Part shown: piece by piece, positions 7,822-37,708 of the stretch
Layout of the letters: every line of letters begins with the position of its first letter
Numbering within the stretch: position 1 is the stretch's first letter
From: Bacteroidales bacterium
GTDB lineage: Bacteria; Bacteroidota; Bacteroidia; Bacteroidales; UBA932
Length of the DNA stretch: 64,000 bases
Direction of reading: 5' to 3'
NCBI GenBank assembly: GCA_017473705.1
Contig: JAFUJQ010000029.1
Span: 124,001-188,000, forward strand
Program-made: the position numbers and the translations under genes
The notes under the pieces: model-generated
What the model was told of the DNA's origin: nothing
The model's database searches: none
What the model saw: the letters and a program-made list of their open reading frames with translations, nothing else

Positions 7822-7831
7822 AGAATATTAT

Positions 7832-9664: not shown

Positions 9665-9694
9665 TCTATCTGGTTTATGTGTTTTTAAAACTTT

Positions 9695-9702
9695 CAAATA
9701 TA
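9695..9702 (-). promoter_or_regulatory. -7 box (TATATTTG) for the S41 peptidase operon
   Basis: Read on the minus strand, TATATTTG lies about 30 nt upstream of the ATG at 9664. No convincing TTG is seen at 19-20 nt further upstream, so only the -7 element is supported. Confidence 0.45.
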
Positions 9703-15866: not shown

Positions 15867-15877
15867 ATTCAACGATT

Positions 15878-19634: not shown

Positions 19635-22600
19635 TTAAAATGTTATACCCAGGGACGTCGTCACTGTCCTTGCGAACGGATAGTCTATACCTCGCTCAAC
19701 GCGCACCGAGGTCGCCCTGAAGACATCCGTCATCGTAAGTTGGACATTCATCGCGCCGAGCCTCATGCGGCGCGCGATCCTGTCCGGAAACTCGTAGCCG
19801 ATATTGAACGACTCTCCGACAAGCGAGTTGTCATCCATCACGAAACGCGACGACTTCTCTGTCCTCTGCACCAGAGAGATACCCTTGAAGTATGCCTCTC
19901 TGTTGTTCTCGGACCATCTGTCGTAAAGAGCTCTCTTGTCCTGATTGTTGTATACTTCCTGAGTGCCGATGTTCTCGACCTTCTGGAAGAGCGACGAGTT
20001 GAACACCTGGCCGCCCCAGCGGTATCTCAGATAGCATCCGACAGAGAATCCCTTGAGATACAATGAAGTACCGATGAGGCCTTCTATCTTCGGCTGCGTA
20101 TCGCCGACCACGACCTCGTCATTCACATCATATGCGAACGAATATGTTCCGTCCTTCTTTATGAAGAGCTCCTTTCCGGTCGCAGGATCGATACCGGCCG
20201 AACGGACAGCCCATATTGCTGTCGGGCTTCCTCCGTCATAGTATCTCGTCGTGCCGACAAGGGATGTCTTTCCGCTTTCGTTCAACGCGCTGAACGAGTT
20301 GCCTATGTCGGCATATTCGGACCTCGCGCTCACGGCATTGAGGCTGATGTTCCACATGATGCCTTCCGAAGGCCTGTATACTGGCGAAATCCTGAATGAC
20401 GCCTCCCAGCCCTGCGTCTTCTGGCTTCCGGCATTCATGGCCACGCTGGTCACTCCCATGGATCCCGGAGTGGTGATCACTGCGAGAAGCGGATCCGTAT
20501 GCTTCCAGTAGTAGTCGAACGTCATATTGACCCTTTCTCCCCAGAATGTCATATCGATTCCGAGGTCATAGTTGGTGGTCTCCTGCCATGCCAGATCCGT
20601 ATTACCCAAAGCATTCAGTATCACGCCTGTACCAAAGATATTGGTCATCCAGCCGTTGAACTTGTATGTCGAGAACGCCTGGTATGCTGCAAAATTCTGG
20701 TTTCCCGGATTACCGACCGATCCACGCAGCTTCAGCAGCGAGAAGAAGTCGAAGTCCTTCATGAACGGCTCCTTGTGGATGTTCCATCCAGTGCCCACAG
20801 ACCATGTGTTCCTGAAGCGGTTGCCGGTACCGAACATAGACGCACCGTCAAGACGGTAGTTGAAGTCGAGGAGGTAGCGTTCTGCATATGCATATCCGCC
20901 GTTGATGTAGAAGCTGGCGGCACGCTTGAGGCTTTCGTTATAGTCCGGCGAGTCTCCGACAGGATAGCCATTGGCGAAGGACGGAGCGTCGAACTGGTCG
21001 TCGGTGAAACCTGTTGCCGAATAGCCGTAGACCTGTCTGTGATTGTTGCTGAAGTTGAATCCTCCGACAGCATTGACCATATGCTTCTTCGCGAAAAGCT
21101 TTCCGAAGGTTACAGCGACATCTCCTTCATAGACCAGTTCCTTGATCTGAGTATGGGCATAGAGTCCCTTCTCGGTCTCACCCATATCGTCGAACTGCGA
21201 ATGCAGCGGCGACAGGCGTGTCTGCTCGTCATCGTCCTGCTTGGTCAGACCGAACTTCGCCCTGAGGCGCAGCTCCTCGGTGACAAACCACTCGAAAATG
21301 AAGTTGTTGGTGAATCCGAAGCCTGTAGCCTTGTCCCAGTTGTTCATACGGGCGTTCCACAATGGATTCGCCACAGGATAATCGTCTACGCCTTCCTCCG
21401 GATAGTACAGATATTTGTCCACGCCTCCTTCGGCATTGTACTTCCTGTAATATGGATTGGCGAATGCATATTCTGCGAACGAGACGGTCGGATTGGTGAC
21501 ATCGAGCCAGTTGATCGAGAGCTTGTTGCTGAACTGGAACTTTCCCGTGCGATAGATAAGGTCCACATTTCCCTCGAGAGTCTGTCTGTCAGAATCCTTC
21601 ATGACACCGCCTACATTGCCATAGCTCAGGCCGATGCCGTATCTGATCTTGTCCTCTCCACCTTCTGCATATATGTTATGCTTATGGGTGAATCCCAGGC
21701 GTATAGGCTCGCTGAGCCAATATGTGTCGACTCCCCTCTCGATCTCCTTCAGACGCTCGTTGCGGAGATTGTCAAGCCTTATCTGGGCGAAAGGATCTCC
21801 CGTATTGTCCTTGTATACACCAGCAAGAGTCTCGAACTGGAGTTTCTCGCGGGAATTCATCAGGTTGTAGTCGCTCAGGTCTGCCAGAGAGAGGCCATAA
21901 TCTCCCTTATATGAGAGCTGCAGGCGGCCGCGGGCCGGGGCCTTGGTCTCGATGACGACAACTCCGTTGGAGGCTTTCGAGCCATAGATGGCCGTAGAGG
22001 CCGCATCCTTGAGGATCGTCACCGACGCCACGCGGTTCATGTTCAGATTCATGATGGTCTCCAATGTGGTCTCGAAGCCGTCAAGGATGAAGAGCGGCTG
22101 GTTCGGGTCTGTGCCGTATTCCTCCTTGAGGCCCACGACGCTCGTCTTGCCTCGTATCTCGATGTCCGGCATCATATTAGGATTGGAGCCGAACTGGGTG
22201 TTCTCCATCATCTTGAAAGACGGATCCAATGTCTTGAGGCTCTGCAGGACATTGGAAGATCCGACAGCCTTGAGCTGGTCTGTCTTGAAGGTCGCAGACG
22301 CTCCCGTGAAGCTCTCCTTCTTCCTCTCATACACACCGGTCACCACAACATCGGCCAGCTGCTCTGCATTCATATACATCACAACCTTCTGGAAAGATGA
22401 AGCATTCTTCAGAGTATAGAGTTTTACTTCATCATCATAGCCGACATATGAGAACGTCACCTCGCATTTCTGATCCGGAATGCGAAGTTCATAGGCTCCG
22501 TCCACGTCTGTCACGGTTCCACACTTGGTCCCCTCCACCACCACAGTCACTCCGATGAGCGGATATCCGTCAGCAGAGTCTATGACCTTTCCCTTGAGCA

Positions 22601-22676
22601 CAGCCACCTTGTCCTGAGCTGCCAGCGACAGCACGGACATCAGCAGAAAAAACATATTCAGAATGAAATTCCTCAT
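19635..22676 (-). CDS. SusC/RagA-family TonB-linked outer-membrane transporter
   Basis: 1013 residues with a cleavable signal peptide (ending SLAAQD). Residues about 25-105 form a carboxypeptidase-D-regulatory-like domain (GKVIDSADGYPLIGVTVVVEG). A TonB plug follows (about 110-230, VLQSLKTLDPSF, SVTILKDAASTAIYGSKASN), then a long beta-barrel ending in an aromatic residue (TSLGITF). It imports the ligand captured by the SusD partner using TonB-ExbB-ExbD energy; exbB/exbD genes are at 61507-63818. It leads a six-gene operon with 0 to 11 nt gaps. It is slightly longer than a minimal SusC but full length. Confidence 0.96.
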   Translation of the reverse strand: MRNFILNMFFLLMSVLSLAAQDKVAVLKGKVIDSADGYPLIGVTVVVEGTKCGTVTDVDGAYELRIPDQKCEVTFSYVGYDDEVKLYTLKNASSFQKVVMYMNAEQLADVVVTGVYERKKESFTGASATFKTDQLKAVGSSNVLQSLKTLDPSFKMMENTQFGSNPNMMPDIEIRGKTSVVGLKEEYGTDPNQPLFILDGFETTLETIMNLNMNRVASVTILKDAASTAIYGSKASNGVVVIETKAPARGRLQLSYKGDYGLSLADLSDYNLMNSREKLQFETLAGVYKDNTGDPFAQIRLDNLRNERLKEIERGVDTYWLSEPIRLGFTHKHNIYAEGGEDKIRYGIGLSYGNVGGVMKDSDRQTLEGNVDLIYRTGKFQFSNKLSINWLDVTNPTVSFAEYAFANPYYRKYNAEGGVDKYLYYPEEGVDDYPVANPLWNARMNNWDKATGFGFTNNFIFEWFVTEELRLRAKFGLTKQDDDEQTRLSPLHSQFDDMGETEKGLYAHTQIKELVYEGDVAVTFGKLFAKKHMVNAVGGFNFSNNHRQVYGYSATGFTDDQFDAPSFANGYPVGDSPDYNESLKRAASFYINGGYAYAERYLLDFNYRLDGASMFGTGNRFRNTWSVGTGWNIHKEPFMKDFDFFSLLKLRGSVGNPGNQNFAAYQAFSTYKFNGWMTNIFGTGVILNALGNTDLAWQETTNYDLGIDMTFWGERVNMTFDYYWKHTDPLLAVITTPGSMGVTSVAMNAGSQKTQGWEASFRISPVYRPSEGIMWNISLNAVSARSEYADIGNSFSALNESGKTSLVGTTRYYDGGSPTAIWAVRSAGIDPATGKELFIKKDGTYSFAYDVNDEVVVGDTQPKIEGLIGTSLYLKGFSVGCYLRYRWGGQVFNSSLFQKVENIGTQEVYNNQDKRALYDRWSENNREAYFKGISLVQRTEKSSRFVMDDNSLVGESFNIGYEFPDRIARRMRLGAMNVQLTMTDVFRATSVRVERGIDYPFARTVTTSLGITF

Positions 22677-22744: not shown

Positions 22745-22767
22745 AGCCCGGCGGAATCCGCCGGGCT
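22745..22767 (-). terminator. Rho-independent terminator of the 22790-33665 operon
   Basis: AGCCCGGCG / CGCCGGGCT form a 9-bp GC-rich stem with a GAATC loop, 22 nt after the stop at 22790 on the minus strand. The hairpin is followed there by TTTTTTATG. It insulates the seven-gene operon from susC. Confidence 0.9.
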
Positions 22768-22789: not shown

Positions 22790-25700
22790 TTACATTGCGA
22801 TACCCTGAGACATCACTGATACAGTCTCAGTCCTAAGGGTTGCCTGAACATTATTGAGCATAAAATCAGGTGCGTTGAATGTACAAGTAGTTTCAGTCAG
22901 GTCAAAATACTCCATAGCAGCCTGAGACACAGCCTCTCCTGTCACAGGATCTGGAGCTACAAGATAGATGACACCTGATGTTGCATCGGTAGGTTCGACA
23001 ACGAAGTTACCCTCGAAATATGCCATCCACATTCCTGCTGCTTCAGCACCATAGAGTGCCTCATAATCTATACCGCAGAGGAAGTAATCAGACGCGATTG
23101 ATACACCGAAGTCAAAGACTGACGGCATATTCTCAACCCCCATAGATGCTGCCATCTCTGTCCAGTTGAAGTCCCACTGCTTGCCAACAATAGTAAGCTC
23201 TACCTCTGGCTCAGTCTGCTCTCCATAGATCATGGCGTACATCTTGTCGTGATAGTACTGCATCTTGTCCTGGAAGTGAACCTCAGTGTAGTAGTAGTTA
23301 CCCTCTGCATCCTTCCAGCTGGCTGCTACGTAAAGATCCGGAGCAACTCCATCCTCATAGTTATTTGAGTAGAAGAGACCAGACTCAAATGGCTCTGTAG
23401 TAGTTGTGGTTCTCCATGAACCGTAGCCAAGGCTCCAAAGTTTCGCAGCCTTTGCAGCAGCTGGCTCAGTCATATCATATGAAAGACCGTCTACATAAGC
23501 GATGCATACCTCAGTAGCCTCAGCTGGAACCATTGTATACGCAACCTCATAGTAGAACTGATACTTGCCATAATAGTCCTGATATGCATAACCATAATAT
23601 GCGCCATCACCATAGTTGTTGTCTGGATAGAACTCTGAATCCTCAGGGAGAACAAGAGTGATGACAGGCTTGGTAGCCTCGAACGCCTCACCCTCAGTAA
23701 TCACGCCGTCAATTGAGAATACGCTCTCGAAGTTGAAGATCGCTGCAGACTTACCAGGAGCACCGTTCTCATCGTAAGGAAGGACAGCAACCATATATGA
23801 GCTGCCATACTCACAGTTCGGAACATACATGAAACCGTCAACGAGCTCGTCAGCTGTTACGACCTTACCTCTGTTGTCACGGTCAAAGTGGATGGTAGTT
23901 GCAAGAGTTGCATCATCCATTCCTTCGTAAGGGTTGTAGTAGTTGGTCTGGAGCCAGTAGTACTTGAATGAAGCTGCTGTACCACCCTCTACTGCAGGCT
24001 TGAACATGAACTCTGTAGTGTTCTTGAGTACACCGTCTGTAAGGTTGGTCTCGTAAGGCTCAGTGAACACGATGTCGCTGTATACGAGCTGCTCAGTTGT
24101 AGCTGAGATCTTTGCAAGCTCACCATACTTGCCTGCGTCGTCTACGAAGAGAGCAACGAAGTGACTGGTTGTTTCAGGTTCTGAATCAAGGCAGTCGTAG
24201 TAAGGGAACTCTACGTCATTTGGAGTCATACCCCACTCCTGGAGGAGACGGTTTACGAGAAGCTCGTCATCACCACCATAGAGGTTCCAATCTTCATCAT
24301 CAAGCCACAAGTAGTAGAAAGCCACCCAGTTTGCAGCAGAAGGCTCGACCTTGACAGCTAACTGAGAATACTTGTCTACCTGCTTCTCAACCATAACATA
24401 CTCCCAATTCTCATAGTCATACTCCTCTGCCATATATGAGAACACCTGCTCAGCTGTTGCATTTACGGCACCGCCGGCTGTAAGAGCTGCAGTTGTGAAC
24501 TTGAACTCATAAATATCCTCAACAGTGTAATCCTCCCAAGCACGTCCGTCCATAGGGATGACGAGAAGGTAGATATCGAGGTTTGGAGCATAGTTGCCTG
24601 ACATAGAAGCAGTTGAACCCTCAGCAATATCAAGAACCGAACCAGTGTAAGACTCAGTGTAGTACTTACCCATCGGGCCTGACCAAGATTCAGGATCAAG
24701 TGACATCACCATATTCATCTTGTACTCCTCGAGAGCACCTTCATAATCAAGGTAGTTAGCTGGGATTGCAAGAGCAAGATACTTGTCAGCACCTTCTACA
24801 GTCACTGTTGCGGTTACATTGTATGCTGTCCTCTGTGACTCATCCTCAACTGCTGTAACATTAACAACCTGATAGTATGCAACCACGAAGTTGTCCATTG
24901 TGTAAGTTTCAATGTTCCAGTCTGAAACGAGAGCCCAAGCAACATATTCAACACCCTTCTCAGGCTCAGCACCGAGGAGTTCAGCAACGTCTTTAACCAC
25001 TTCGAACTCGCCGTCGTTCATTGCATAGTCTGACCAGCCCTCTGAATTGAGGTCAGCGAGAAGATCAGCAACCTCAGCCTCGAATGATTCTCTTGGAGAC
25101 ATGCCATAGTAGAACTCTGGAGCCCAGTTATTGTTGCTTGTTGCTGTGAAGTAAGCCTTGCCACCGAAAGCCTTTACACTTACAGGACGGTTGCTTACCT
25201 CTACTGGAAGCTTACCCACCATGCACTTGCCCTCTGCGCTGCAAGCATGAACCTTCACATAGCCTGAAGCTGCGCACTTACCAGGAATCTCAGTGCCAGT
25301 CTCATAATCATACTCACCAACAGTGTCCTCGTAGTTAGGTGCAGTAACCTCAAGCATGCCGTCTGAAGCGATCTCTGCATACCAGCCCTTAGGATATGAC
25401 ATTACAGTGATGTCATCGATGCCTGAAGACTTGATTGTCACCTTCTGAGTAGCCTCTGACTGGAAGTAAACCTTACCTGCGCGGATCTCGAATACGATTT
25501 CCTGTGGCTTCTCTATTGTGAACTCAGCGTCACCGACCTTGATGGTCACTGTGTCACCGTTGTCAACGAGAGATACCTCTGGGCACTCGTGCTCACATGG
25601 CACATACTGGCAAGGAGGGCACTCATGATCGCACTCATCAACGAGTACGATACCTGTACCTGTCCAGGTCTTTCCGCCGTCGAACGAGTACTGAAGCTCG

Positions 25701-25936
25701 TTGGTGTCAGACACCTGGAACTTGAGAGTGTAGAGTCCGTCAACCTTGGCAACAAGGTCAGCGAGCTGTCCCTTAAGGGCCTCAACAGCATCAAGACGAT
25801 TGTCGAGATCGTTGATCTGTTCTCTGAGTTCTGTGTCATCGTACTTGTCGCACGACACAAAGAGAGAAGAAGTTGCGCACAATGTCATGACACCTGCGCA
25901 GAGAGCCATAAGGCTCTTCATGAAATTTCTCTTCAT
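22790..25936 (-). CDS. Cysteine-rich DUF4988/PL29-N-type lipoprotein
   Basis: 1048 residues, lipobox LFVSC (lipid Cys29), then DKYDDTELREQINDLDNRLD, the DUF4988/PL29-N coiled coil. Immediately after, residues 102-118 read CDHECPPCQYVPCEHEC: six Cys and two His in 17 positions, a metal- or disulfide-cluster-like segment. A second cluster (Cys221, Cys232, Cys238) follows. The rest is a chain of beta modules of fibronectin-like type with Y/W-rich strands. No catalytic motif is seen. It is the last gene of a seven-gene operon with three Omp28-like proteins and a TlpA-like thioredoxin, 46 nt after the previous gene. It could be the terminal thiol or metal client of that system. Confidence 0.85.
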   Translation of the reverse strand: MKRNFMKSLMALCAGVMTLCATSSLFVSCDKYDDTELREQINDLDNRLDAVEALKGQLADLVAKVDGLYTLKFQVSDTNELQYSFDGGKTWTGTGIVLVDECDHECPPCQYVPCEHECPEVSLVDNGDTVTIKVGDAEFTIEKPQEIVFEIRAGKVYFQSEATQKVTIKSSGIDDITVMSYPKGWYAEIASDGMLEVTAPNYEDTVGEYDYETGTEIPGKCAASGYVKVHACSAEGKCMVGKLPVEVSNRPVSVKAFGGKAYFTATSNNNWAPEFYYGMSPRESFEAEVADLLADLNSEGWSDYAMNDGEFEVVKDVAELLGAEPEKGVEYVAWALVSDWNIETYTMDNFVVAYYQVVNVTAVEDESQRTAYNVTATVTVEGADKYLALAIPANYLDYEGALEEYKMNMVMSLDPESWSGPMGKYYTESYTGSVLDIAEGSTASMSGNYAPNLDIYLLVIPMDGRAWEDYTVEDIYEFKFTTAALTAGGAVNATAEQVFSYMAEEYDYENWEYVMVEKQVDKYSQLAVKVEPSAANWVAFYYLWLDDEDWNLYGGDDELLVNRLLQEWGMTPNDVEFPYYDCLDSEPETTSHFVALFVDDAGKYGELAKISATTEQLVYSDIVFTEPYETNLTDGVLKNTTEFMFKPAVEGGTAASFKYYWLQTNYYNPYEGMDDATLATTIHFDRDNRGKVVTADELVDGFMYVPNCEYGSSYMVAVLPYDENGAPGKSAAIFNFESVFSIDGVITEGEAFEATKPVITLVLPEDSEFYPDNNYGDGAYYGYAYQDYYGKYQFYYEVAYTMVPAEATEVCIAYVDGLSYDMTEPAAAKAAKLWSLGYGSWRTTTTTEPFESGLFYSNNYEDGVAPDLYVAASWKDAEGNYYYTEVHFQDKMQYYHDKMYAMIYGEQTEPEVELTIVGKQWDFNWTEMAASMGVENMPSVFDFGVSIASDYFLCGIDYEALYGAEAAGMWMAYFEGNFVVEPTDATSGVIYLVAPDPVTGEAVSQAAMEYFDLTETTCTFNAPDFMLNNVQATLRTETVSVMSQGIAM
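25583..25633 (-). other. Cys/His cluster CDHECPPCQYVPCEHEC in the lipoprotein at 22790-25936
   Basis: Encodes residues 102-118. The pattern CxHxC..C....CxHxC is near-symmetric around PPCQYVP: C-D-H-E-C on the left and C-E-H-E-C on the right. The symmetry and spacing would suit a Zn- or Fe-S-type site or two disulfide hairpins; this is inference from the pattern. Confidence 0.6.
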
Positions 25937-25982
25937 AATTAATAGGGATTAGTTAATAAAATTGTTTATATAAACATATTGT

Positions 25983-28259
25983 TTATTCAATTATTCCGAA
26001 GATCTCCTCAAGAGTCTGGGCCTTTCCGCCCTGGCAGATAAGGTGATACATCTTGTATACAGGCTCGCCGTCAGCATCCTGTCCGACTGCGATACAAGCC
26101 GCAACTGTCACCTGGTCGCCTGACCAGTCCTGTGATGTATTGCTGTTTGCACGCATACCGCCGCCGTTGTTCTCGAAGCCACCGGCAACCCAAGAGTAGA
26201 TACCGTTCCACCATGTCTCATAGTCAATTCCCGACTCTGCAATGTTGTTAAGGTGACCCTGATTGAGGCCAGGGATGAATGCTGCAAGTTCGGTTGTACC
26301 CTGAGTATAGCAATACAGGAAGTATTCTACATCGTGGTCGATGTCATACTTGACCGTCCAGTCGTAAGCATCGCCTCTGCTGTATGGCACAAGAGAAAGG
26401 TTCATAGTAGGGTCTGGTCCGACCTGAACCTCTGCTGTCGTGATTGAGGCGAACTGGAACTGGCTGATGTTTCCGTCAAAGTCCTCTGCGCAGAGGAATA
26501 CGGTATACTCAGTGTCAGGTTCCATACCTGTCCAAGTGAATGGATCGCTGCCGCTAGGAACGGTAGGCCATGCATTCACATCCAGGCTCGAATATTCTAC
26601 TGAACCTGTTCCGGAAGAAGACGGAGTAAATATATAATTCACCCAATCGTTCCACGGACTGTCAATCCAGAGACCAGGATTGGCATCTGCCGTCATATAC
26701 TGTACATAAACCACAGATACTGTCTCAGGATCATAAGTGATGTCTGCGGTGAACTGAGTACGTCCCGGATTCTTGAGCACGAGTTTGAGATCCTTCACAT
26801 TGCACTGGTCAGGAGATGCAAGATTCCTCTCATCCATGACTATTGGATCAGAGAATGTGAGCGGACCTGCCTGGCCATAGCCGTTTCGTCCTGTATATCC
26901 TATATAATATGTCGCACCTGGCTGAAGTCCGCCGAAATAATCGAGCTTCACTCTGCCCTGTGCTCCAACAGCCGGTTCATCCGCATTCTTATCCCACGCG
27001 AAGTTAGGGTTGTGACATCCGTATCCCTGATTTACGAGATCGATAGCCTCGAGCTTCTGATCCAGCGAACTTGCATTTTCAAGTGCTTCCTTCTGCTCTG
27101 AAGTGTAGACACGATAGAAGATTGTCTGGCAATCCTTCGGCATCTCTGCATAGAACTCGAAATATGCAGCTGCAATCCTCTCAGGAATGAGCGCCACATT
27201 CGGCTCGGCAATTGCAGCATCCTCCGGAATTTCAAGGAGGTGGAAGTCGCTGCGCGCGTAGTCTTCCTGAGGAGTGAGGTTCGCATCCACCGCCACTGCA
27301 CATGTTGTGCTGAGGATGTTGTGGTCTGCTCCCTGTCCATAGTCAAATGAGTAATAGCAAGAGCCTTCGACATTCGGATCGTAGACTGAAGGTCCTGTCA
27401 CTCTTGTACGCATGAAGTCACGGAACATAGTGTCGCCGAAAATGTCGATATACTCGTCGATCTCCTCTGTAAGACCTCCGAAGAAGTACACTCCCGCTGC
27501 GTCAGAGTTAGGATAATGCTGCACACCGAATGCATGGTATCCTGTGGTCACCTCGATCTCCACCTGAGGGTCGCCGATAAGCGGCTGACTGGTGGTGTGG
27601 ACGTAGCAGAGGGTGATCTGCTCCTGATTAGCAGTGCTGATTGATGTGTCCGTACCTCCGACAACGGCTATGACATAATCGCAGTCAGGAATTGCAATTG
27701 CTGAAGCTGGAGCATATGCCGTGCTCATCCAGTCGAGTTCGATCTGGAGGAAGTCATCCGGATTGTCGAAGTCGTTTATCGAGATTTCATATCCACCGCT
27801 TCCCGAAGTATTGAAGAGGAATGTGCGGATATGCTCTTCCATATCAATCGCATCTGAGCCTGTGAGAACACCCGCGTTCCTGTCATTGAGGAGGTTGTTG
27901 TAGAGCTGCGCGAGCGGATACACATCAAACTTGAAAGACTGCACCATGGCTCCCGGACGAAGTTCGAACACGAAATTATTGTCTTCGACCTTTGTAACCT
28001 CGATGGTCACACCGACATCTGAACCCTCAGCGAAAAGGTTGCCCGGCTCGAGCGGGAACTCCGCCATGTAAGGGAACTCGAACCTCTGCTGGTCACCTGT
28101 CTGGTTTCCACCTTGATTGCCGCCTTCATTCCCGTTTCCGGTGCCAGGAGTCTGTTCCGGATCGTCACCCTTGTTGTCTTCCGGCTGCGGTTTGTCGCAA
28201 GATGCGAAAATACCGAGAACGGCAAGGGACATCAGAAAGAATTTAAAGTTTCTCTTCAT
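25983..28259 (-). CDS. Large cysteine-bearing lipoprotein with fibronectin-like modules
   Basis: 758 residues, lipobox FASC (lipid Cys21). A low-complexity tether rich in G, N, Q, P and D (about residues 22-60) follows, as in proteins held away from the membrane. Beta modules come next, two with fibronectin-like endings (GATYYIGYTGRNGYGQAG, DTEYTVFLCAEDFDGNISQ). More than ten Cys lie beyond the lipid Cys, which is many for a surface lipoprotein. No enzyme motif is recognised. The gene is 13 nt downstream of an Omp28-like gene and 46 nt upstream of the DUF4988 lipoprotein. Function unknown; client or ligand-binding partner of the Omp28-like proteins is a guess. Confidence 0.82.
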   Translation of the reverse strand: MKRNFKFFLMSLAVLGIFASCDKPQPEDNKGDDPEQTPGTGNGNEGGNQGGNQTGDQQRFEFPYMAEFPLEPGNLFAEGSDVGVTIEVTKVEDNNFVFELRPGAMVQSFKFDVYPLAQLYNNLLNDRNAGVLTGSDAIDMEEHIRTFLFNTSGSGGYEISINDFDNPDDFLQIELDWMSTAYAPASAIAIPDCDYVIAVVGGTDTSISTANQEQITLCYVHTTSQPLIGDPQVEIEVTTGYHAFGVQHYPNSDAAGVYFFGGLTEEIDEYIDIFGDTMFRDFMRTRVTGPSVYDPNVEGSCYYSFDYGQGADHNILSTTCAVAVDANLTPQEDYARSDFHLLEIPEDAAIAEPNVALIPERIAAAYFEFYAEMPKDCQTIFYRVYTSEQKEALENASSLDQKLEAIDLVNQGYGCHNPNFAWDKNADEPAVGAQGRVKLDYFGGLQPGATYYIGYTGRNGYGQAGPLTFSDPIVMDERNLASPDQCNVKDLKLVLKNPGRTQFTADITYDPETVSVVYVQYMTADANPGLWIDSPWNDWVNYIFTPSSSGTGSVEYSSLDVNAWPTVPSGSDPFTWTGMEPDTEYTVFLCAEDFDGNISQFQFASITTAEVQVGPDPTMNLSLVPYSRGDAYDWTVKYDIDHDVEYFLYCYTQGTTELAAFIPGLNQGHLNNIAESGIDYETWWNGIYSWVAGGFENNGGGMRANSNTSQDWSGDQVTVAACIAVGQDADGEPVYKMYHLICQGGKAQTLEEIFGIIE

Positions 28260-28272
28260 AGTACGATAATTG

Positions 28273-29355
28273 TTATTTCAAATCATATCCAGAATCTCCG
28301 CCATCAATGGCGCAGACATTCATGTTGTTTACATAGCCCTCGGCATCGAGCACGAGCGCATAGATCTCTGTATTTTCAAGGACCCACCTGCTGTCAAGAT
28401 CCACATTCCATGTCTTTGAAACTTCCTGACCAGCAGCAACGCGGCCGTCTTCCGTAAATTTCTCACCGGTAAATGTTCCGGAATAAGAGGTCACGACCTT
28501 GCGGACAACATGTCTGTGATTGTAGTCATCCTGTCCCTCAGAATATGTAGGAGTCTTCTGCCAACCGCGGATCTTGTCCTGGACGACCAGGACCACAACG
28601 CGGTACTGCGAAGACTTCTCTGAAGTCAGCCTGACAGTCACCTCTGCCTTGCCCGATGCGACAGCCGAAGACACTGCGACTCCGCAATGCGGCATATGCT
28701 CGGTGAAAGCAGCCTCTATGCTTGGACGGAAGTTGGCCACACCATCATCTGTCAGCACTCCCGAATCTCTCAGGTCTGTGACGAATGACGGATATGCAAG
28801 CCCCTTGAACATCTTGAAGACATCCTGCGTCTGTGCAATCGCAAGCGTATCAGTTCCCTCGGCATCAGAATGGAATGCACAGAGATGGATATTATCCTTG
28901 TATTTCGCCAGCTGAGGATATGCAAGTATTCCCTTCATCTTGTCATATCCCTCAGGACAATTGATGCACCATGCTCCTGTGAATTCTATCACGCTAACAT
29001 GACGGTCGAACTTCGATTCCACTACTGCCGGACTTGAATCAGTCACCGTCACCGTCACCGGTTCGGAAGTCATTCCCGCGTATTCCGCGACAAAGACATG
29101 CTCGCCTTCATTTTCAGGAACATATATATTTCCCTGAAGTTCAATGGACGAAAGGGTGCTGTATATCTTCGACTCAGAAGTAATGTCCTGACCGTTGTAT
29201 GTCACGGTAAAGACCGCCTGCGACTCTGTCGCAAGGTCTATCTCGCTGTCATCTACGGTCAGCACCGGAAGCGCTGAAGAATCAAGGTTTCCGGAACAGC
29301 CGAAGAAGACTGTTGCTGCTGCCAATACTGATGATATGCAGGTTATTATCTTCAT
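28273..29355 (-). CDS. Omp28-like thioredoxin-fold lipoprotein
   Basis: 360 residues from the ATG at 29355, which overlaps the previous stop by 1 nt (TAATG); an open extension to 29457 lies inside the upstream gene. Lipid Cys20 (FFGC). An Ig-like domain (about 30-110, QAVFTVTYNGQDITSESKIY) precedes the thioredoxin-like half with GAWCINCPEG (Cys130, Cys133), the closest of the five paralogues to a classical WCxxC redox site. It probably acts on disulfides in the outer envelope. Third of three adjacent Omp28-like genes in the operon. Confidence 0.87.
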   Translation of the reverse strand: MKIITCISSVLAAATVFFGCSGNLDSSALPVLTVDDSEIDLATESQAVFTVTYNGQDITSESKIYSTLSSIELQGNIYVPENEGEHVFVAEYAGMTSEPVTVTVTDSSPAVVESKFDRHVSVIEFTGAWCINCPEGYDKMKGILAYPQLAKYKDNIHLCAFHSDAEGTDTLAIAQTQDVFKMFKGLAYPSFVTDLRDSGVLTDDGVANFRPSIEAAFTEHMPHCGVAVSSAVASGKAEVTVRLTSEKSSQYRVVVLVVQDKIRGWQKTPTYSEGQDDYNHRHVVRKVVTSYSGTFTGEKFTEDGRVAAGQEVSKTWNVDLDSRWVLENTEIYALVLDAEGYVNNMNVCAIDGGDSGYDLK

Positions 29356-30413
29356 TATCTTATCTTGCATTCGCTGACATTGTTTACAGTCCACACATAT
29401 CCTCCGTCTTCCGAAGTCAGAGCTGCAGCTACAACGCGCATGTTCTCCACATTCCATTCAGGAGAGAGTGTGAAAGACTTTTTCGCTTTCGCTTCGACGC
29501 CGACTGTCAAAGGAAGATTGTCGTTGATCTTGTCTCCGGTCGCACCCGTAAGCACTTTGCGTACTACATTATTATGTATATAACCAGACTCCCCGGACTG
29601 ATCCGCAACGATACCATCCTCTACGAGGAATACTATGTAACGATAAATCGACGGAAGATTGGAAGTGATGCCGACTTCTACGACTCCATTTTCGGTGCTG
29701 ACGGTGACTCCGCAGTTCGGAGCATATGCCGCAAGTTCCTCATTGTAGCTTTCCGTAAATGTCGGGCCGATCAGATGTGTGCCTGTACGCATGTTCCAGA
29801 AGAGGCGCGGCAGGCCATCAAAGCCTCCGAGCGCACTGTTGAACTCCGCCGTCTCTGGGATTGTCATCGGGTCCTGGATGCCGCTCATATGAGAATGGAA
29901 CGCCACAACGGATATCATTCCCGGATTAGCTTCCTGAAGCGCCTTGATGCCCTTCGTTGCTGACGGGCAGCTTGTGCATCCTGTAGATGTGAAGTATACT
30001 CCCAACACCCTCTGATCATATTCCTTTGCATCACCTGAGAAGAACTGCTTCGCGTCCACCGTCACGGAATTGTCTGTGTAGTTGTTGCCTGCATAGTAAT
30101 ATTTCGCAGAGAACTTATAGGTTCCGGCTGTAACGGTCGAGAACTTGTTCGCGCCATATGCCATGTATTTCTCCTCACCGGCATATGCCCTGATGATCTG
30201 AAGGGTCTTGGCATTGCTGACATCCTCGCTTCCGTACATTACGGTGAAAGTCACCTCATCATTGCCGTCCGCAGAAATCTCAGTCTTGTCCGCAAATATC
30301 CTGAGGACTCCCTCAGGAACCTCGTCGATGCCGCTTCCGCCGTTGTCAGGCTCTACACCTGAGCAGGCAACCGCAGCAAACGCGCAAAGGAGATATCTGA
30401 ATATATTCTTCAT
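29355..30413 (-). CDS. Omp28-like thioredoxin-fold lipoprotein
   Basis: 352 residues, lipobox AVAC (lipid Cys17). An Ig-like N-terminal domain (about 35-120, DKTEISADGNDEVTFTVMYG) is followed by the thioredoxin-like half with STGCTSCPSATKG (Cys146, Cys149). Only 3 nt separate it from the upstream paralogue, and its stop overlaps the downstream paralogue start. The CTSC site lacks the tryptophan of typical oxidoreductases, so redox potential and role may differ from the neighbour at 28273. Confidence 0.85.
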   Translation of the reverse strand: MKNIFRYLLCAFAAVACSGVEPDNGGSGIDEVPEGVLRIFADKTEISADGNDEVTFTVMYGSEDVSNAKTLQIIRAYAGEEKYMAYGANKFSTVTAGTYKFSAKYYYAGNNYTDNSVTVDAKQFFSGDAKEYDQRVLGVYFTSTGCTSCPSATKGIKALQEANPGMISVVAFHSHMSGIQDPMTIPETAEFNSALGGFDGLPRLFWNMRTGTHLIGPTFTESYNEELAAYAPNCGVTVSTENGVVEVGITSNLPSIYRYIVFLVEDGIVADQSGESGYIHNNVVRKVLTGATGDKINDNLPLTVGVEAKAKKSFTLSPEWNVENMRVVAAALTSEDGGYVWTVNNVSECKIR

Positions 30414-30416
30414 CTC

Positions 30417-31559
30417 CTACTCGTTGTATCTGTAATCCACAGTCTCACCATAACCACAGGTCACGATGTTGTCCATCACCGAAGAATCAGAAGCCTTCTT
30501 ATGTCCCCAGACAGCCACATAGAACTTCTTCAGGTCAGCTTCCGAAGGGACATTTCCCTCACCGAAGTCAAATGAGAATTCCCTTTCCATCTCCTCACCC
30601 TTTTCAAGCGCCTTTCCTGTCTCGGATGAATATCTGAGGAAATTAGGAGAAACGGTCAGAACTACCTCGTCAAACACTCCGTCATTATTGGCAGAGTAGA
30701 CACCTGGCTCGTCATATACCAGACCATCTCTGAGCACTGCACATGCGAGGTCATATCCTCCGCCTGTGCTGGTCTCAAGGGATGCCTTGACCTTGAGCGA
30801 GGTTCCCTCGACCTTCACTGAAGACACCTTTATTCCACAGGTTGCAGGATACTCTACGCGGCGCTCGAATATATTGTCCTCGAGAACAGATGTGCCGACA
30901 GCTCCTACAACCGCCTCATCCATGTCATAGACCAGTGTCGGCCATCCGTTGCCGCCGAATGCACTCATCAGATATGCGCCCAGCGCAACATCACCTGCAT
31001 AGACAGAGAAAGGATCCCTGTAGTTGAAGTCTCCATGGAAGGCAAGCACCACAGAATGGTCCTTGGTGTTGTCAGACAATCCATGAAGACTGTTGGCAAG
31101 AGAAGGACATGCAACGCACCATACACTTGTAGCCTTGAAAAGGCCCACATTCCTGTGATAAGCCTCATATGTGGAACGGTTCACCGCTTTCACCTGAACC
31201 GTGTTTGCACATTCGTTTCCAAGGTATGTCGCCGTGAACGTGTAAGTCCCGTTCTCGATGAAGGAGACCGTCCTTTCCATACGAGGAACGCGCACTCCCT
31301 TGTCTGAAACGATGTTCACGCTCTGAAGTGTCCTCTTGTCCTCGAGCATCTCCCGGTCATACTTGTCCTTGAGAGAGAACTTGACGAACTCCTGACCGTC
31401 AGCCTCAACCTCTTCGAGGTTTGCCGACAGGGTGAACGGAGCAGTGAACTCCTCCGGGATATCTCCCGTGCCTGTTCCTTCGCCTCCCTGCTCAGGGTCA
31501 ATGGTTCCTGAACATGCCGCGAAGGCCATCATTGCTGCGATGTAAAAAAACTTTTTCAT
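30417..31559 (-). CDS. Omp28-like thioredoxin-fold lipoprotein
   Basis: 380 residues, lipobox FAAC (lipid Cys16), then an acidic G/E/T-rich tether. An Ig-like domain (about 38-125, SANLEEVEADGQEFVKFSL) leads to the thioredoxin-like half with SVWCVACPSLANS (Cys148, Cys151). The WCVAC site is redox-type. A dispersed palindromic element sits in the 34-nt gap before this gene. It is the first of the three tandem Omp28-like genes; sequence similarity among the three is low outside the domain pattern, so the duplication is old. Confidence 0.85.
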   Translation of the reverse strand: MKKFFYIAAMMAFAACSGTIDPEQGGEGTGTGDIPEEFTAPFTLSANLEEVEADGQEFVKFSLKDKYDREMLEDKRTLQSVNIVSDKGVRVPRMERTVSFIENGTYTFTATYLGNECANTVQVKAVNRSTYEAYHRNVGLFKATSVWCVACPSLANSLHGLSDNTKDHSVVLAFHGDFNYRDPFSVYAGDVALGAYLMSAFGGNGWPTLVYDMDEAVVGAVGTSVLEDNIFERRVEYPATCGIKVSSVKVEGTSLKVKASLETSTGGGYDLACAVLRDGLVYDEPGVYSANNDGVFDEVVLTVSPNFLRYSSETGKALEKGEEMEREFSFDFGEGNVPSEADLKKFYVAVWGHKKASDSSVMDNIVTCGYGETVDYRYNE

Positions 31560-31561
31560 AG

Positions 31562-31590
31562 ATTTCTCGACTTAGCTCGAAATGACAATG
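31562..31590. repeat. Dispersed palindromic intergenic element
   Basis: The 34-nt intra-operon gap holds CTCGACTTAGCTCGAAATG followed by ACAATG. Its reverse complement reads CATTGTCATTTCGAGC then TAAGTCGAGAAATC, the form GTCATTTCGAGCnAAGnnGAGAAATC that recurs between genes in many bacterial genomes. Arms ATTTCTCGA / TCGAAAT form a small hairpin with a bulged T. Related copies: 36534-36563 and, more degenerate, 4810-4832. Confidence 0.55.
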
Positions 31591-31593
31591 TGT

Positions 31594-33168
31594 TTAGAAC
31601 GAAGTTGTGATGCTGAAGTTTGCTCCTGTATACTGAGGAATCTGGCGACATACTCCACCTGAGCAGATGAAGCCGTCCTTGTAGCGTCCATAGCCTGCTG
31701 CTATGCGCGTACGTCCTTTAGTATAGCTTACTCCAACATTGTAGTAATGCATCTTTGTCGAACCATGGTTGAACATGTCGCTTCCGAAGATGCTCCAATG
31801 TGGTGCAAAGTTGACCTCAAGGAGAGCGGCCATCCAATCCTTCTTATCCTCCTGAGTAGTCAGATACTGAAGTTCGAGGCGTGTAGAGAAGGTCGGAGTC
31901 CACTTATAAAGCAGGTCAGCGACGAATATGTTCGAGAGCCATGTGGTCTTGAAGCTTCCGTAAGTAGGATTATACTCCTGCATAGAGTACATGAGGAGCA
32001 TCTTGAACTGCTTTGTCCACTGCTTCTCGACATCAAAGCTGAAATCCCTGAAAAGGAGGTTTCCAGCCTTTGCCGTGCCTTCCTCTGCTATTGTGTAATA
32101 TGTAGAGAAGTTTGCGTGGACCTTCATTCCTCTCTTTCCGCCCAGGGCTGTGCCGCGACGGAAGTTGTAGAACGCGTCGATCTGGCCACCGACCTCACCG
32201 CTGTTGAACGAGAACGATGACTCGTCACCGAGCTGAGGGTTGTATGGATGAAGTGTTGTAAGCATGTAGGTATACTGAGTACTCATCGCAGGGACATACG
32301 AGATGAGGTTTGCTGTCGAGAGTGACCTTGCTGTGATCTTCTGGCCCATCCACTCGAGACGGCGTCCGGTCACAGTCACTCCGAGGCCTCTGCCGTTGTA
32401 ACCCACTTCGAGAAGCTGGGCATTACCCCTCTTCTGAGTGAATGACACGAGCTTCTTGCCGAGGTCCACATATTCTCCCTTGAGGAAAAGTCCGTTCCAG
32501 TCGAAGTTGAGCCTTCCTGAAAATCCTACCGAATTCGGTTTTCCGCCGGCCTCCTCCATATCGATGCTGATCTTCTCGAATCTGTTGAGGACTGATCCTT
32601 CCACGGAAAGAAGGATATCGTCAAGGCCTATGATGTTAGAAAGCGAAACGCTGAGGTCTGCTCCTCTGACCTGGGTGTCAGATATATCCATTCCAAGACG
32701 AGGCATGCCCCAGAGAGCCTTGAAGGCGATCTTGTCTTCCCAGTTGTATGCAAAGCGGGCTCCCATAAGCGCATTGTTGAGACCGAGGAGCCGGTCCTCC
32801 CAGCTGCGGAAAAGCAGACCGCTTCCGAACTGGTCGTAGAACGTACCGGCTGTGATCTGGAAATCCTCATCCTTCCAGTTCACATAGATGTTGCTGAGAG
32901 CGAACTTATTCAGGTCATCGGGATATCCGATGGTAGCAGGAGCATAGCCTTCTATCTGCAGACCGGCAGAGAAATTGCCGTTGTAGTAGTCCAGCTTGAG
33001 GTAGTTGTTCGAACCGAAACGGTCATTGTCAGGGGTGAACCTGTTCTTCTCGTCCTGGACATAGATATGGTCATTGGTCTCGAAGCTTCCTGTCAGATAA
33101 CCCTTGTCCTGCGCCGAGGCAGTGATCGACAAGGCTGCGAAGCTTATGATCAGAATTGCTTTTTTCAT
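31594..33168 (-). CDS. DUF6029-family outer-membrane beta-barrel protein
   Basis: 524 residues from the ATG at 33168; the frame opens 24 nt earlier without a signal peptide start. The signal peptide ends SITASAQDKGYLTGSFETN. The rest alternates short aromatic and amphipathic strands (NNYLKLDYYNGNFSAGLQIEG, NIYVNWKDEDFQITAGTFYDQFG) and ends in ANFSITTSF, with the terminal Phe typical of outer-membrane barrels. It resembles DUF6029 proteins, whose function is unknown. It lies 11 nt downstream of a TlpA-like thioredoxin and upstream of three Omp28-like genes, and may be the pore or export partner for that set. Confidence 0.85.
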   Translation of the reverse strand: MKKAILIISFAALSITASAQDKGYLTGSFETNDHIYVQDEKNRFTPDNDRFGSNNYLKLDYYNGNFSAGLQIEGYAPATIGYPDDLNKFALSNIYVNWKDEDFQITAGTFYDQFGSGLLFRSWEDRLLGLNNALMGARFAYNWEDKIAFKALWGMPRLGMDISDTQVRGADLSVSLSNIIGLDDILLSVEGSVLNRFEKISIDMEEAGGKPNSVGFSGRLNFDWNGLFLKGEYVDLGKKLVSFTQKRGNAQLLEVGYNGRGLGVTVTGRRLEWMGQKITARSLSTANLISYVPAMSTQYTYMLTTLHPYNPQLGDESSFSFNSGEVGGQIDAFYNFRRGTALGGKRGMKVHANFSTYYTIAEEGTAKAGNLLFRDFSFDVEKQWTKQFKMLLMYSMQEYNPTYGSFKTTWLSNIFVADLLYKWTPTFSTRLELQYLTTQEDKKDWMAALLEVNFAPHWSIFGSDMFNHGSTKMHYYNVGVSYTKGRTRIAAGYGRYKDGFICSGGVCRQIPQYTGANFSITTSF

Positions 33169-33179
33169 CGCCAAAGGGG

Positions 33180-33665
33180 TTATTTGCTGCATTTCTTGAT
33201 GGCCTCGAAGAGTTCAAGTTCGTTGCCAGGCACATATGAAGTGTGAGAATAGACAATCTTGCCAGTACCGTCCAACACGAATACATGTGGAACGACCGAC
33301 ACGTTCATGGCTCTCATGAAGTCTTGGTTCTTGTCGAAGAGGAGGGTATATTCCTCACCCCAGCCGCGTCCCTCAGCAAATGACTTTGCCTTTGCAAGGA
33401 GACGGCTGTCGTCTGTCGAAACTGCAACTACACGGAACTCCACCTCATCAAGCCAGTCAGGCAGTGCGTCATAGATGGCGTCAAGCTCACGGATGCATGG
33501 CTTGCATGATGTAGACCAGAATGAAACGATCATCGGTGTACCTTCCTTGAGGAGGGACTTTGTGTTCACGGTTTCACCCTTCGCATTCTCAACTGTTACA
33601 GAAGGGACCTGGGCAGCGGCGGCTGCGCAGATAAGGAGTGCAAGACTCAAAAGAAAAGTTCTCAT
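33180..33665 (-). CDS. Periplasmic TlpA-like thioredoxin
   Basis: 161 residues from the ATG at 33665; the frame is open further upstream but the ATG gives a clean signal peptide (MRTFLLSLALLICAAAAAQ). The single thioredoxin domain has SFWSTSCKPCIRELD (Cys54, Cys57) and the cis-Pro segment VSVVPHVFVLD. The signal peptide is of the cleaved type, so the protein is soluble in the periplasm, unlike the lipid-anchored TlpA at 14508. It leads the seven-gene operon and has a well-formed promoter. Likely role: thiol-disulfide donor or acceptor for the downstream CxxC lipoproteins (inference). Confidence 0.9.
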   Translation of the reverse strand: MRTFLLSLALLICAAAAAQVPSVTVENAKGETVNTKSLLKEGTPMIVSFWSTSCKPCIRELDAIYDALPDWLDEVEFRVVAVSTDDSRLLAKAKSFAEGRGWGEEYTLLFDKNQDFMRAMNVSVVPHVFVLDGTGKIVYSHTSYVPGNELELFEAIKKCSK

Positions 33666-33724: not shown

Positions 33725-33755
33725 CAAAAGTACGGAATAATATTCGAATTACCAA
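33725..33755 (-). promoter_or_regulatory. Promoter of the TlpA-like/DUF6029/Omp28 operon
   Basis: On the minus strand TTGG (33755-33752), 19 nt, TACTTTTG (33732-33725) fits the Bacteroidota consensus. The leader to the ATG at 33665 is about 55 nt. Confidence 0.6.
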
Positions 33756-33798
33756 TAATTTATTATGCAGACGGGGCAAAACCGGGCGCGATTGGCCA

Positions 33799-35357: not shown

Positions 35358-36533
35358 ATGAGATATCTTCTCCTCAGGATGAAGCGTTTCTGCGGCTTCA
35401 TCACCGGATTTGTATTCTTCCTGTCCGGAATAGTGAAACTGATGGATCCTGTGGGCGCAGGACTGGTGATGCAGGAATATTACGCATTCCTGCATCTGGG
35501 CTTCCTTGGATTCTCATCAAAGTTCATGGGAGTATTCTTCGCCCTCGCCGAGACCGTAATCGGTACAGCACTCATCACAGGCGTATGGCGACGTGTTGCC
35601 GCCCAGTGCGCCATCGCTTTGCAAGGCTTCTTCACACTATTGTCCCTCCTGCTGGTCATATTCAAGCCCGAGATGGACTGCGGATGCTTCGGAGAAGCCA
35701 TACATCTGACACACGGAGAAACATTCATAAAGAACATAATACTGCTCGCTCTGCTCCTGACATACTACATTCCCCGCAAGCATCTGGGCGAGACCAGAAA
35801 GAAGAAATACGTATCTTTCGCACTCGTCATCTTGTCAGTACTCACTTTTACCGTCTACTCATGGATATACATACCTATGATCGACTTCACAGCCTACAAG
35901 GCAGGTGCCGAGCTCCAGGCCGGCGTGACGGTCAATGCAGACGACCTATACGAGTCAGTATTCACATATGAGAAAGACGGTGTACAGCAAGATTTCACAC
36001 TCGGACATCTTCCTGACTCGACATGGACATTCGTAAACGCCAGCACACGCGTTAAGGAAGGGCACGAAGACTCATTGGTGAGCCTGTCTTTCTTCAACGA
36101 TGCCACCGGTGAATACATGGACACGCTGGCAGTCGAGGGCAAGGTCATGGTAGTTTCCGTCTATGACCCTGACATGTCTCACAGAAAGTGGAACAAGACA
36201 TCAACCTTCATCAGAAGGTCGCAGAAGGCCGGTTTCACGACACTCCTTCTGGTGACGTCCACAGAAGGAGTCCCTGCAGAGCTTGCCGCATCTGCATTCA
36301 TCTCCGACTACAAGACACTCATAAGCCTGAACAGGTCCAACGGAGGTGTCACATACTTCAATGACGGAGAGCTCGTTCGCAAATGGGCAAGAGTGAACGC
36401 TCCGTCCAAGACCGAACTTGACGAGCTCCAGAGCACCGACGCCACAGAGATAGCCATTGCTAAAGACAGCAAAGGAAGCCTTGGGTTTCAAGGCTTCCTT
36501 CTATATGTCTTTGCAGTAATGCTTCTGCTGTAG
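35358..36533 (+). CDS. BT_3928/DoxX-MauE-like membrane protein with CGC motif
   Basis: 391 residues. About four membrane segments in the N-terminal half (residues about 10-155) include FLSGIVKLMDPVGAG and MDCGCFGEAI, the MauE/DoxX-type pattern with a conserved CGC. A fifth segment near 160-180 leads to a periplasmic C-terminal domain (about 185-370) with a thioredoxin-like outline (VMVVSVYDPDMSHRKWNK) but no CxxC. A last hydrophobic stretch closes the protein. MauE-like proteins pass reducing equivalents across the inner membrane in some systems. It could therefore supply the TlpA/Omp28 proteins nearby (inference). It follows tmk by 11 nt. An alternative start is the ATG at codon 8. Confidence 0.82.
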   Translation: MRYLLLRMKRFCGFITGFVFFLSGIVKLMDPVGAGLVMQEYYAFLHLGFLGFSSKFMGVFFALAETVIGTALITGVWRRVAAQCAIALQGFFTLLSLLLVIFKPEMDCGCFGEAIHLTHGETFIKNIILLALLLTYYIPRKHLGETRKKKYVSFALVILSVLTFTVYSWIYIPMIDFTAYKAGAELQAGVTVNADDLYESVFTYEKDGVQQDFTLGHLPDSTWTFVNASTRVKEGHEDSLVSLSFFNDATGEYMDTLAVEGKVMVVSVYDPDMSHRKWNKTSTFIRRSQKAGFTTLLLVTSTEGVPAELAASAFISDYKTLISLNRSNGGVTYFNDGELVRKWARVNAPSKTELDELQSTDATEIAIAKDSKGSLGFQGFLLYVFAVMLLL

Positions 36534-36563
36534 TTCCCCGGCTACGCTCGTGATGACAATCAG
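36534..36563. repeat. Dispersed palindromic element between convergent genes
   Basis: TTCCCCGGCTACGCTCG then TGATGACAATCAG. In reverse complement it reads GTCATCACGAGCGTAGCCGG, a variant of the GTCATTnCGAGCGnAG element also at 31562-31590. It fills the 26-nt gap between the ends of the genes at 36533 (plus) and 36560 (minus), and may act as a weak terminator. Confidence 0.5.
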
Positions 36564-37708
36564 TTGTACTGATATGGGAGAGGGGTGTTGAATGTGACAT
36601 CCACAGCATTGACGATCGAATATGCGTCGCCGTCAGACTTGGTCACGAACACCACCATATTGAGATTTTCAAGCTTGAACTTGTCCCAGTAGATGCTTTC
36701 TGGAGCTGCGTCATAGATGTCATCAAGATTCCAGATGAAGATGTAGTCTGCTGTCTTTCCCTTCTCGATATTGCCCAAAGCATGACCGTAATACACTTCT
36801 CTGTTTCCTATCTTGGCAGCGGCATCGATATACCTCACGCAATCATTGTGAGTATTCATCCACTCCTGGCCATTTATCTGCTTGGACACTATGCCATCCT
36901 CAAGAAGCATGGCGCCAAGGCGATATATACCCGACGTTGAAGCCTTCACATTCACCCTTGCAATCACCTGTTTTCCGACAAGCTTCGCATTGACGGCAAT
37001 ACCGCAGGCTGCTCCTTTCTTCGAGTCGTTCTGCTCGAGGATAAGTGACTTGAAGTTATCAGCAGATGTCTCTGCATACAAAGCATACAGCTGCTTGTAA
37101 TCGATCACGATTGAAGGGTTTATGGCACCAAGCGCCTGCTGCGCCCAACTCCACTGAAGGTATGCATCATCCGGGAAAGATGGAGTATACTGATAGTTAT
37201 GTATAGCCGCCCTCACATACTCTTCAGCAAAAGCCTCATCATCAAATGCCGGCTTAAGCCTTTCCATAAACTCCGAACAGTAACTGCAGCCTGTTCCTGT
37301 AAACTGCATGCACATGGCCCTTACCTTGAAGTCCGTGCTTTCAGGCTTCGGGTCTGCCGGCATTTCCGGAATTGGAACCGCAATGGCTCTAAGGGTCACC
37401 GGATCGGAATTATGGACACCGTAGCTTGCCCAGACATCATAGTCTCCCGGCTCAGTAGCAAAGAACTTACCGTCAACCACATCAATGATTGATGTTCCGA
37501 TATAGAAAGCAAGGTCTTCAGTAACGACCTGACCGTCAAATTTCACGGTCAGAGTAACATAGTCCTCGCCATCCGACTGCAGAAGGGTCTTGTCCGGAAC
37601 AATCTCAAGCTTGCCGGATGTTCCTTCATTCCCCGAACCTGTACCTCCGCATGAGATAAGCATCACTGCCGCTGCCAGCAGTGATGCGAATTTATAAATC
37701 CTACTCAT
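36560..37708 (-). CDS. Omp28-like thioredoxin-fold lipoprotein
   Basis: 382 residues, lipobox MLISC (lipid Cys20), followed by a G/S/T-rich tether. An Ig-like domain (about 33-112, EIVPDKTLLQSDGEDYVTLTV) precedes the thioredoxin-like half with GTGCSYCSEF (Cys141, Cys144). Its first 8 nt overlap the 3' end of the lipoprotein gene at 37701, so it is the second gene of a two-gene operon. It resembles the paralogue at 9747 most, sharing the PEVPADPQP / PEMPADPKP linker and the GTSLGSIKAGEK / GHALGNIEKGKT segment. Confidence 0.85.
   Translation of the reverse strand: MSRIYKFASLLAAAVMLISCGGTGSGNEGTSGKLEIVPDKTLLQSDGEDYVTLTVKFDGQVVTEDLAFYIGTSIIDVVDGKFFATEPGDYDVWASYGVHNSDPVTLRAIAVPIPEMPADPKPESTDFKVRAMCMQFTGTGCSYCSEFMERLKPAFDDEAFAEEYVRAAIHNYQYTPSFPDDAYLQWSWAQQALGAINPSIVIDYKQLYALYAETSADNFKSLILEQNDSKKGAACGIAVNAKLVGKQVIARVNVKASTSGIYRLGAMLLEDGIVSKQINGQEWMNTHNDCVRYIDAAAKIGNREVYYGHALGNIEKGKTADYIFIWNLDDIYDAAPESIYWDKFKLENLNMVVFVTKSDGDAYSIVNAVDVTFNTPLPYQYN

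Follow-up and report, generated by a model that had tools for sequence, protein, structure and literature searches.

The 64,000-nucleotide (nt) stretch analysed here (the window: positions 124,001 to 188,000 of contig JAFUJQ010000029.1, gut Bacteroidales assembly GCA_017473705.1) contains an operon of seven minus-strand genes, running from 33665 down to 22790 in our open reading frame (ORF) reading of the window. In order, the genes encode a TlpA-like thioredoxin, a predicted outer-membrane beta-barrel of the DUF6029 family, three Omp28-like lipoproteins and two large lipoproteins, referred to here as BIG2 and BIG1. They are tightly spaced, with intergenic gaps of 11, 34, 3, -1, 13 and 46 nt. 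A candidate promoter on the same strand (33725-33756) has the form ATTG-N20-TACTTTTG, with TACTTTTG at 33732-33725 and ATTG 20 nt upstream, a layout that matches the Bacteroidota promoter consensus; TANNTTTG by itself is frequent (30 in the window vs 20.5 expected). At the other end is an intrinsic terminator-like site (22745-22767, minus strand) with a 10-pair stem and a T run. This stem is the longest and most G+C-rich among the 13 terminator-like sites found, a number that is not in excess of expectation (10.1, standard deviation 3.5). Family profiles and sequence reading agree on the seven genes, family order, promoter and terminator described in a first-pass annotation of this DNA, and the four cysteine motifs it listed (SCKPC, WCVAC, GCTSC and WCINC) are all present. 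The starts of the TlpA (33665), DUF6029 (33168) and third Omp28 (29355) genes had to be corrected. Two more Omp28 genes beside large lipoprotein genes, and a cysteine pair in the barrel, had been overlooked.

The TlpA-like thioredoxin (33180-33665, minus strand, 161 amino acids (aa), starting at ATG 33665) is related to the AhpC-TSA/Redoxin families and has the active site SCKPC, with cysteine codons at 33506-33504 and 33497-33495. With a signal peptide (predicted by eye), a thioredoxin fold and a CxxC, it has the features of the TlpA/AhpC-TSA thioredoxins.

The DUF6029 gene (31594-33168, minus strand, 524 aa, start set at a conserved Met at 33168) matches PF19494 over its full length and above cut-off (E 1.1e-175, profile positions 1-538 of 538). 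Its AlphaFold2 model is a barrel of 24 strands across residues 24-523 of 524, in which two outer loops are conserved. Close to the C-terminus is the sequence CSGGVCR (residues 502-508, codons at 31645-31665, minus strand), which contains a CX4C pair, C502/C507, predicted by the model to lie in the last outer loop. Searches of PDB sequences with the barrel, alone and in profile form, turned up no convincing relative. The folds closest to the model are pores (FimD/PapC and the Occ porins), and the protein, as modelled, looks like a wide pore.

The locus was compared with three sets of DUF6029 loci: 80 from genomes of the same order, including the same genus (order set); 80 from the GTDB collection, the top-ranked of 584 confirmed matches, searched with a pattern that avoids the cysteine loop (named set); and 20 chosen from the phylum's most divergent DUF6029 matches (divergent set). 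Some contigs occur in both the order and the named set, which therefore overlap partly, and ORFs at the order loci were labelled by means of profiles built on proteins of the window. The barrel motif has the general form C-x-G-G-[VI]-C; an R usually comes next, and the motif lies about 17 residues from the C-terminus. Both cysteines fall in the aligned columns of 81 of 82 barrels in the order set (window included); the motif is present at 80/80 named loci and CX4C in 20/20 divergent homologues. CX4C was also found in all 120 matches listed of 2158 database relatives and, with those 120 excluded, in 180 of 181 pooled distinct barrels, the exception being cut by a contig end. The base rate is low: a CX4C within the last 55 residues occurs in only seven of 725 other proteins with 400 aa or more. 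Other cysteines are sparse, as 38 of 64 aligned barrels have none after residue 25 besides the pair, and the next best cysteine column is occupied in 16 of 64. Tandem DUF6029 genes with two BIG1-type lipoproteins between them occur at five loci (L039, L126, L131, L132 and L134), and CSGGVC is kept in both barrels of the tandem pairs where shown.

The barrel gene is followed by the genes for Omp28-like lipoproteins a (30417-31559, 380 aa, WCVAC), b (29355-30413, 352 aa, GCTSC) and c (28273-29355, 360 aa, WCINC), all on the minus strand; the ATG of c at 29355 overlaps the stop of b as TAATG. Proteins b and c match PF11551 above cut-off (E 1.1e-20 and 7.6e-19), and a lies under it (E 1.8e-07, 31.6 bits vs 34.9). 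The structure model of a predicts an Ig-like, a thioredoxin and a C-terminal beta domain. Acidic residues after the lipid cysteine are an export signal of surface lipoproteins in Bacteroidota; at least two D/E at positions +2 to +7 were identified in 45 of 61 Omp28 proteins vs 132 of 340 other lipoprotein-like ORFs. Single-frame Omp28 units with two or three CxxC domains are present at L039, L121, L124, L126 and L128; these are open-frame calls, with the fusion checked by reading in L124 only. A selenoprotein link of Omp28 b was considered and rejected: the match to the NCBIfam model for an Omp28-related selenoprotein (NF045500) is weak (30.2 bits vs a cut-off of 200), and literature searches gave nothing.

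TlpA, DUF6029 and Omp28 form a three-gene core found across Bacteroidota. In the order set, 68 of the 82 barrel genes, counting the window's, have TlpA directly upstream and Omp28 directly downstream on the same strand; the median gaps are 22 nt (TlpA-DUF6029) and 12 nt (DUF6029-Omp28). For 480 control genes from these loci, with products of 300 aa or more, TlpA is upstream of four, Omp28 downstream of 11, and both flank none. Free variation of the neighbours, which the first-pass annotation had named as an outcome that would speak against a shared redox function, is not seen: TlpA lies directly upstream of DUF6029 at 71/80 order, 71/80 named and 18/20 divergent loci. Among the named loci, 29/80 have Omp28 downstream in the same orientation (eight of them without TlpA) and 39/80 have it in divergent orientation, chiefly in Flavobacteriia; in the divergent set the next gene is Omp28 in 5/20. 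The CxxC motifs, whose loss would likewise have spoken against such a function, are conserved. The two cysteines are invariant in 73/73 aligned TlpA neighbours, and the first Cys, the CxxC and the cis-Pro are kept in 75/75 aligned Omp28 neighbours (75 of 76, one of 520 aa or longer having been left out). At seven loci with divergent barrels (L198-L204; CTSGIC), the place of Omp28 as third gene is taken by a different thioredoxin gene (motifs NCPHC, GCPHC or the like).

The same association is visible at the level of whole genomes, where a search for co-occurrence had been proposed. Among 295 Bacteroidales genomes, DUF6029 was identified in 164 and Omp28 in 174; 158 have both, six DUF6029 alone, 16 Omp28 alone and 115 neither. 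All 152 genomes with a strong DUF6029 match (E below 1e-100) also hold Omp28, and the six with DUF6029 alone all fall among 12 with weak matches (best E above 1e-31). In a sample of the phylum, DUF6029 was matched in 80 of 296 genomes. Linkage and co-occurrence counts are uncorrected for phylogeny.

We favour, at a probability slightly short of even, a reading in which the core of the operon works as a periplasm-to-surface thiol-disulfide relay. A trans-envelope thiol relay had been proposed in the first-pass annotation, and the linkage, the conserved CxxC motifs and the barrel's CX4C support that part of it; the proposed ending in cysteine-rich surface clients fared less well (see below). The idea is strengthened because the barrel itself carries a CX4C pair. 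More tentatively, DUF6029 may be the outer-membrane counterpart of DsbD throughout the phylum, a wide barrel that hands TlpA's reducing equivalents to surface thioredoxin lipoproteins. DsbD in the inner membrane would reduce periplasmic TlpA, TlpA would reduce the CxGGVC hairpin of the barrel, and the hairpin would reduce the CxxC of surface-anchored Omp28 proteins, which may in turn act on disulfides of surface lipoproteins or of outside substrates. In this lineage, Omp28 has multiplied to three copies in the operon and five in the window, with the large lipoproteins added as possible partners. The linkage, the three conserved cysteine pairs, the co-occurrence in genomes and the relation of Omp28 to a proven surface thioredoxin were observed directly; the 24-strand barrel and the outer placement of its hairpin come from the model. 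We infer the redox activity of the hairpin, the direction of flow and the surface location of Omp28; the passage of TlpA's electrons across the barrel would be the weakest step.

DsbD is an inner-membrane protein, and the CX4C of its N-domain is a thiol exchange site. Like the proposed relay, it forms a thiol cascade ending in thioredoxin-fold proteins (TlpA/CcmG-type). The barrel hairpin may be an outer-membrane analogue of the periplasmic CX4C hairpin in the DsbD N-domain of the same bacteria. In a simple pattern count of 30 Bacteroidales DsbD_N loci, CX4C was found in 19, CX5C in 10 and CX6C in one; seven of the ten CX5C begin with CC and hence contain CX4C, so that the spacing of the DUF6029 pair is shared by 26/30, an analogy that does not imply homology. 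Unlike DsbD, DUF6029 is a predicted outer-membrane barrel, and no match to DsbD_N, DsbD_TM or C-terminal thioredoxin domains was found in it (Pfam, E up to 1). The genome of the window encodes a DsbD-like ORF of 656 aa with CTGGAC in the N-domain and a C-terminal GCVNC; DsbD_TM is matched above and DsbD_N below cut-off. In family f20, three sampled core-bearing genomes, G055 (C90), G170 (C3) and G267 (C38), encode a DsbD N-domain within about 140 nt after the Omp28 domain, on the same strand. At the G170 locus (L088) the series reads TlpA-DUF6029-Omp28-DsbD.

Several observations weigh against the relay. The cysteine loop is predicted to lie outside and TlpA is periplasmic, so that the connecting route is only putative, and an invariant disulfide in a short hairpin could be purely structural. 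The local confidence of the model at residues 501-510 is 79 vs 92.3 overall, and an inner loop (337-347) is likewise conserved (0.75). The DsbD-like ORF of the same genome sits on another contig. DsbD is usually not beside the core: a pattern search for DsbD-like proteins with GCVNC matched only 4 of 181 loci (L044, L053, L088 and L109); L048 has a further DsbD-like candidate, with ACVNC. TlpA is not directly upstream at 20 of 180 loci. Among the 20 divergent homologues, the third gene encodes another thioredoxin in seven, and five have no Omp28 in the locus. In the genus of the window, 10 of 37 genomes, many of them incomplete, carry DUF6029. The only indication that Omp28 is placed at the surface is the acidic residues after the lipid cysteine; two of the three Omp28 proteins of the operon have just one such residue, and the lipobox pattern matched only 61 of 76 Omp28 neighbours.

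The main rival, which we consider less likely than the relay, is that the barrel's CX4C is a structural disulfide, that TlpA (and Omp28) aid its formation or isomerisation during assembly, and that the barrel is an ordinary pore or transporter. DsbA and DsbC serve the disulfides of LptD during assembly, and LptD is, like DUF6029, an outer-membrane barrel for which disulfide chemistry is needed. This explanation calls for no passage of electrons over the outer membrane, accounts for the strict conservation of both cysteines beside a neighbouring thioredoxin, and suits a model whose closest folds are the pores named above. It leaves unexplained that the third partner is a predicted lipoprotein whose CxxC and cis-Pro are invariant (75/75 aligned), that two outer loops of the barrel are conserved, and that no strong DUF6029 was seen without Omp28 (152/152). 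The likeness to LptD is also limited: the Pfam match of LptD to DUF6029 is weak (E 0.014, 15.1 bits vs a cut-off of 22.4), and DUF6029 differs in carrying a single pair, placed by the model in the last outer loop.

Capture and import are an improbable alternative, in which Omp28 would capture haem, a metal or a peptide with disulfide bonds at the surface, reduce this ligand and pass it on to the DUF6029 pore, with TlpA keeping the system reduced. The resemblance of the modelled barrel to a wide pore would suit this. So would HBP35 (PDB 5y1a), a surface thioredoxin from Porphyromonas gingivalis and, among solved structures, the closest relative of the window's Omp28 proteins. HBP35 binds hemin and sustains growth when hemin is scarce (PMC2907840). 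The cysteine/histidine cluster of BIG1, which might have served such a capture, is not conserved. That the three genes share no function and are adjacent through common ancestry of a gene-dense region is very improbable and strongly disfavoured. The linkage counts, being uncorrected for phylogeny, leave some room for it, but linkage persists between classes despite the changed orientation of Omp28, and 0 of 480 control genes have both neighbours.

The known systems closest to the proposed relay are DsbD, HBP35, Omp28 of P. gingivalis, the FimD/PapC usher pores and LptD. As modelled, Omp28 a shares with HBP35 the combination of a thioredoxin and a beta domain. The surface attachment of HBP35 is ascribed to a conserved C-terminal domain (PMC2907840), whereas the window's Omp28 proteins have a lipobox, are predicted to be lipoproteins and carry an Ig-like domain in addition. 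They belong to the family of P. gingivalis Omp28 (PDB 2r2c; PF11551) and are tied here to a barrel and a periplasmic thioredoxin. We found no function for Omp28 in the open-access literature searched. The barrel does not qualify as an usher, which would have a periplasmic N- and C-domain: no usher family was found in DUF6029 (Pfam, E up to 1), and its modelled strands span residues 24-523 of 524. A role in polysaccharide secretion was also considered; the one paper found to name DUF6029 in full-text searches of open-access literature deals with polysaccharide porins and notes a similarity of some Wzi-like porins to the family (PMC9603273). The open-access literature searched yielded nothing that joins Omp28, TlpA and a barrel, and no thiol-disulfide route through the outer membrane. 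We place the operon among the extracytoplasmic thiol-disulfide pathways, in a new form.

The last two genes of the operon encode BIG2 (25983-28259, minus strand, 758 aa, 12 Cys) and BIG1 (22790-25936, minus strand, 1048 aa, 16 Cys), neither with a Pfam family above cut-off. Both had been called cysteine-rich, a description with weak support: among 130 large lipoprotein-like ORFs of the fetched loci, cysteine content is at the 76th (BIG1) and 80th (BIG2) percentile. Of the 161 loci searched for BIG2 homologues (the window plus the 80 order and 80 named loci), 22 have one, always immediately behind an Omp28 gene, in the same genus and some others. BIG2 has 238 database relatives, with no Pfam domain in any of the 120 matches listed. 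In 131 mostly close relatives C193 and C218 are kept in 127/131 and C722 in 125/131; in 21 more varied relatives the figures are 15/20, 12/20 and 10/19. BIG2 alone may still be a client: its cysteines are well kept in close relatives, though less so in varied ones. BIG1, a paralogue of a 961-aa lipoprotein at 4936-7821, has an N-terminal loop C-x3-C-x2-C-x4-C-x3-C at 25633-25583 that is common only to its closest orthologues (5 rows, several partial). Across 23 rows of the BIG1/4936-7821 family the loop is found only in the window's BIG1; L121 has a shorter, different cysteine loop, and in the remaining rows this region holds a single cysteine at most. The CxHxC cluster noted earlier sits in a variable loop and is missing in the other aligned members of the family, and metal or cysteine capture by BIG1 was rejected as a core function. 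Judged from their sequence relatives, the large lipoproteins are lineage-specific, and with their ordinary cysteine content the surface-client half of the earlier proposal lacks support.

Also present in the window are a fourth Omp28-like lipoprotein (36560-37708, minus strand, GCSYC), after a large lipoprotein of 879 aa (37701-40340), and a fifth (9747-10856, plus strand, TCPNC), followed by a 755-aa lipoprotein (10869-13136) with a weak BACON match. The pairing of Omp28 with a large lipoprotein occurs three times within about 31 kb. A search of the genome returned four Omp28 genes, all in the window, and missed Omp28a, the fifth. An S41 peptidase gene, whose product has PDZ and BACON-like domains, lies at 4936-9697 together with the gene for the BIG1 paralogue. 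S41 homologues terminate the extended operon at six loci (L038, L046, L124, L125, L126 and L134), and because they close it elsewhere the piece at 4936-9697 may be a detached part of the operon. Phocaeicola coprocola DSM 17136 has TlpA, DUF6029, a fused double Omp28, Omp28, BIG2 and S41 peptidase in this order, and lacks BIG1.

Just downstream of the operon, on the same strand, is a SusC-SusD-DUF4843-PKD-TlpA operon (13213-22676), whose last gene has a DUF4595 match just below cut-off; its TlpA-like lipoprotein (14508-15872) has the motif WCGPC. A MauE/DoxX-like membrane protein with DCGCFG (35358-36533) is encoded near the seven-gene operon, and the MauE proteins have links with disulfide chemistry.

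If the relay reading is correct, the outer face of these cells, cut off from cytoplasmic NADPH, could keep its surface thioredoxins reduced. It would give a function to the widespread DUF6029 family and to Omp28, with two cysteines named in each protein. The cultured gut species P. coprocola has a closely similar operon that lacks BIG1. Even if the disulfide is structural, a barrel tied to its own thioredoxin pair would raise a new question of biogenesis. Should the barrel prove to carry electrons, it would stand as a separate kind among extracytoplasmic thiol-disulfide pathways.

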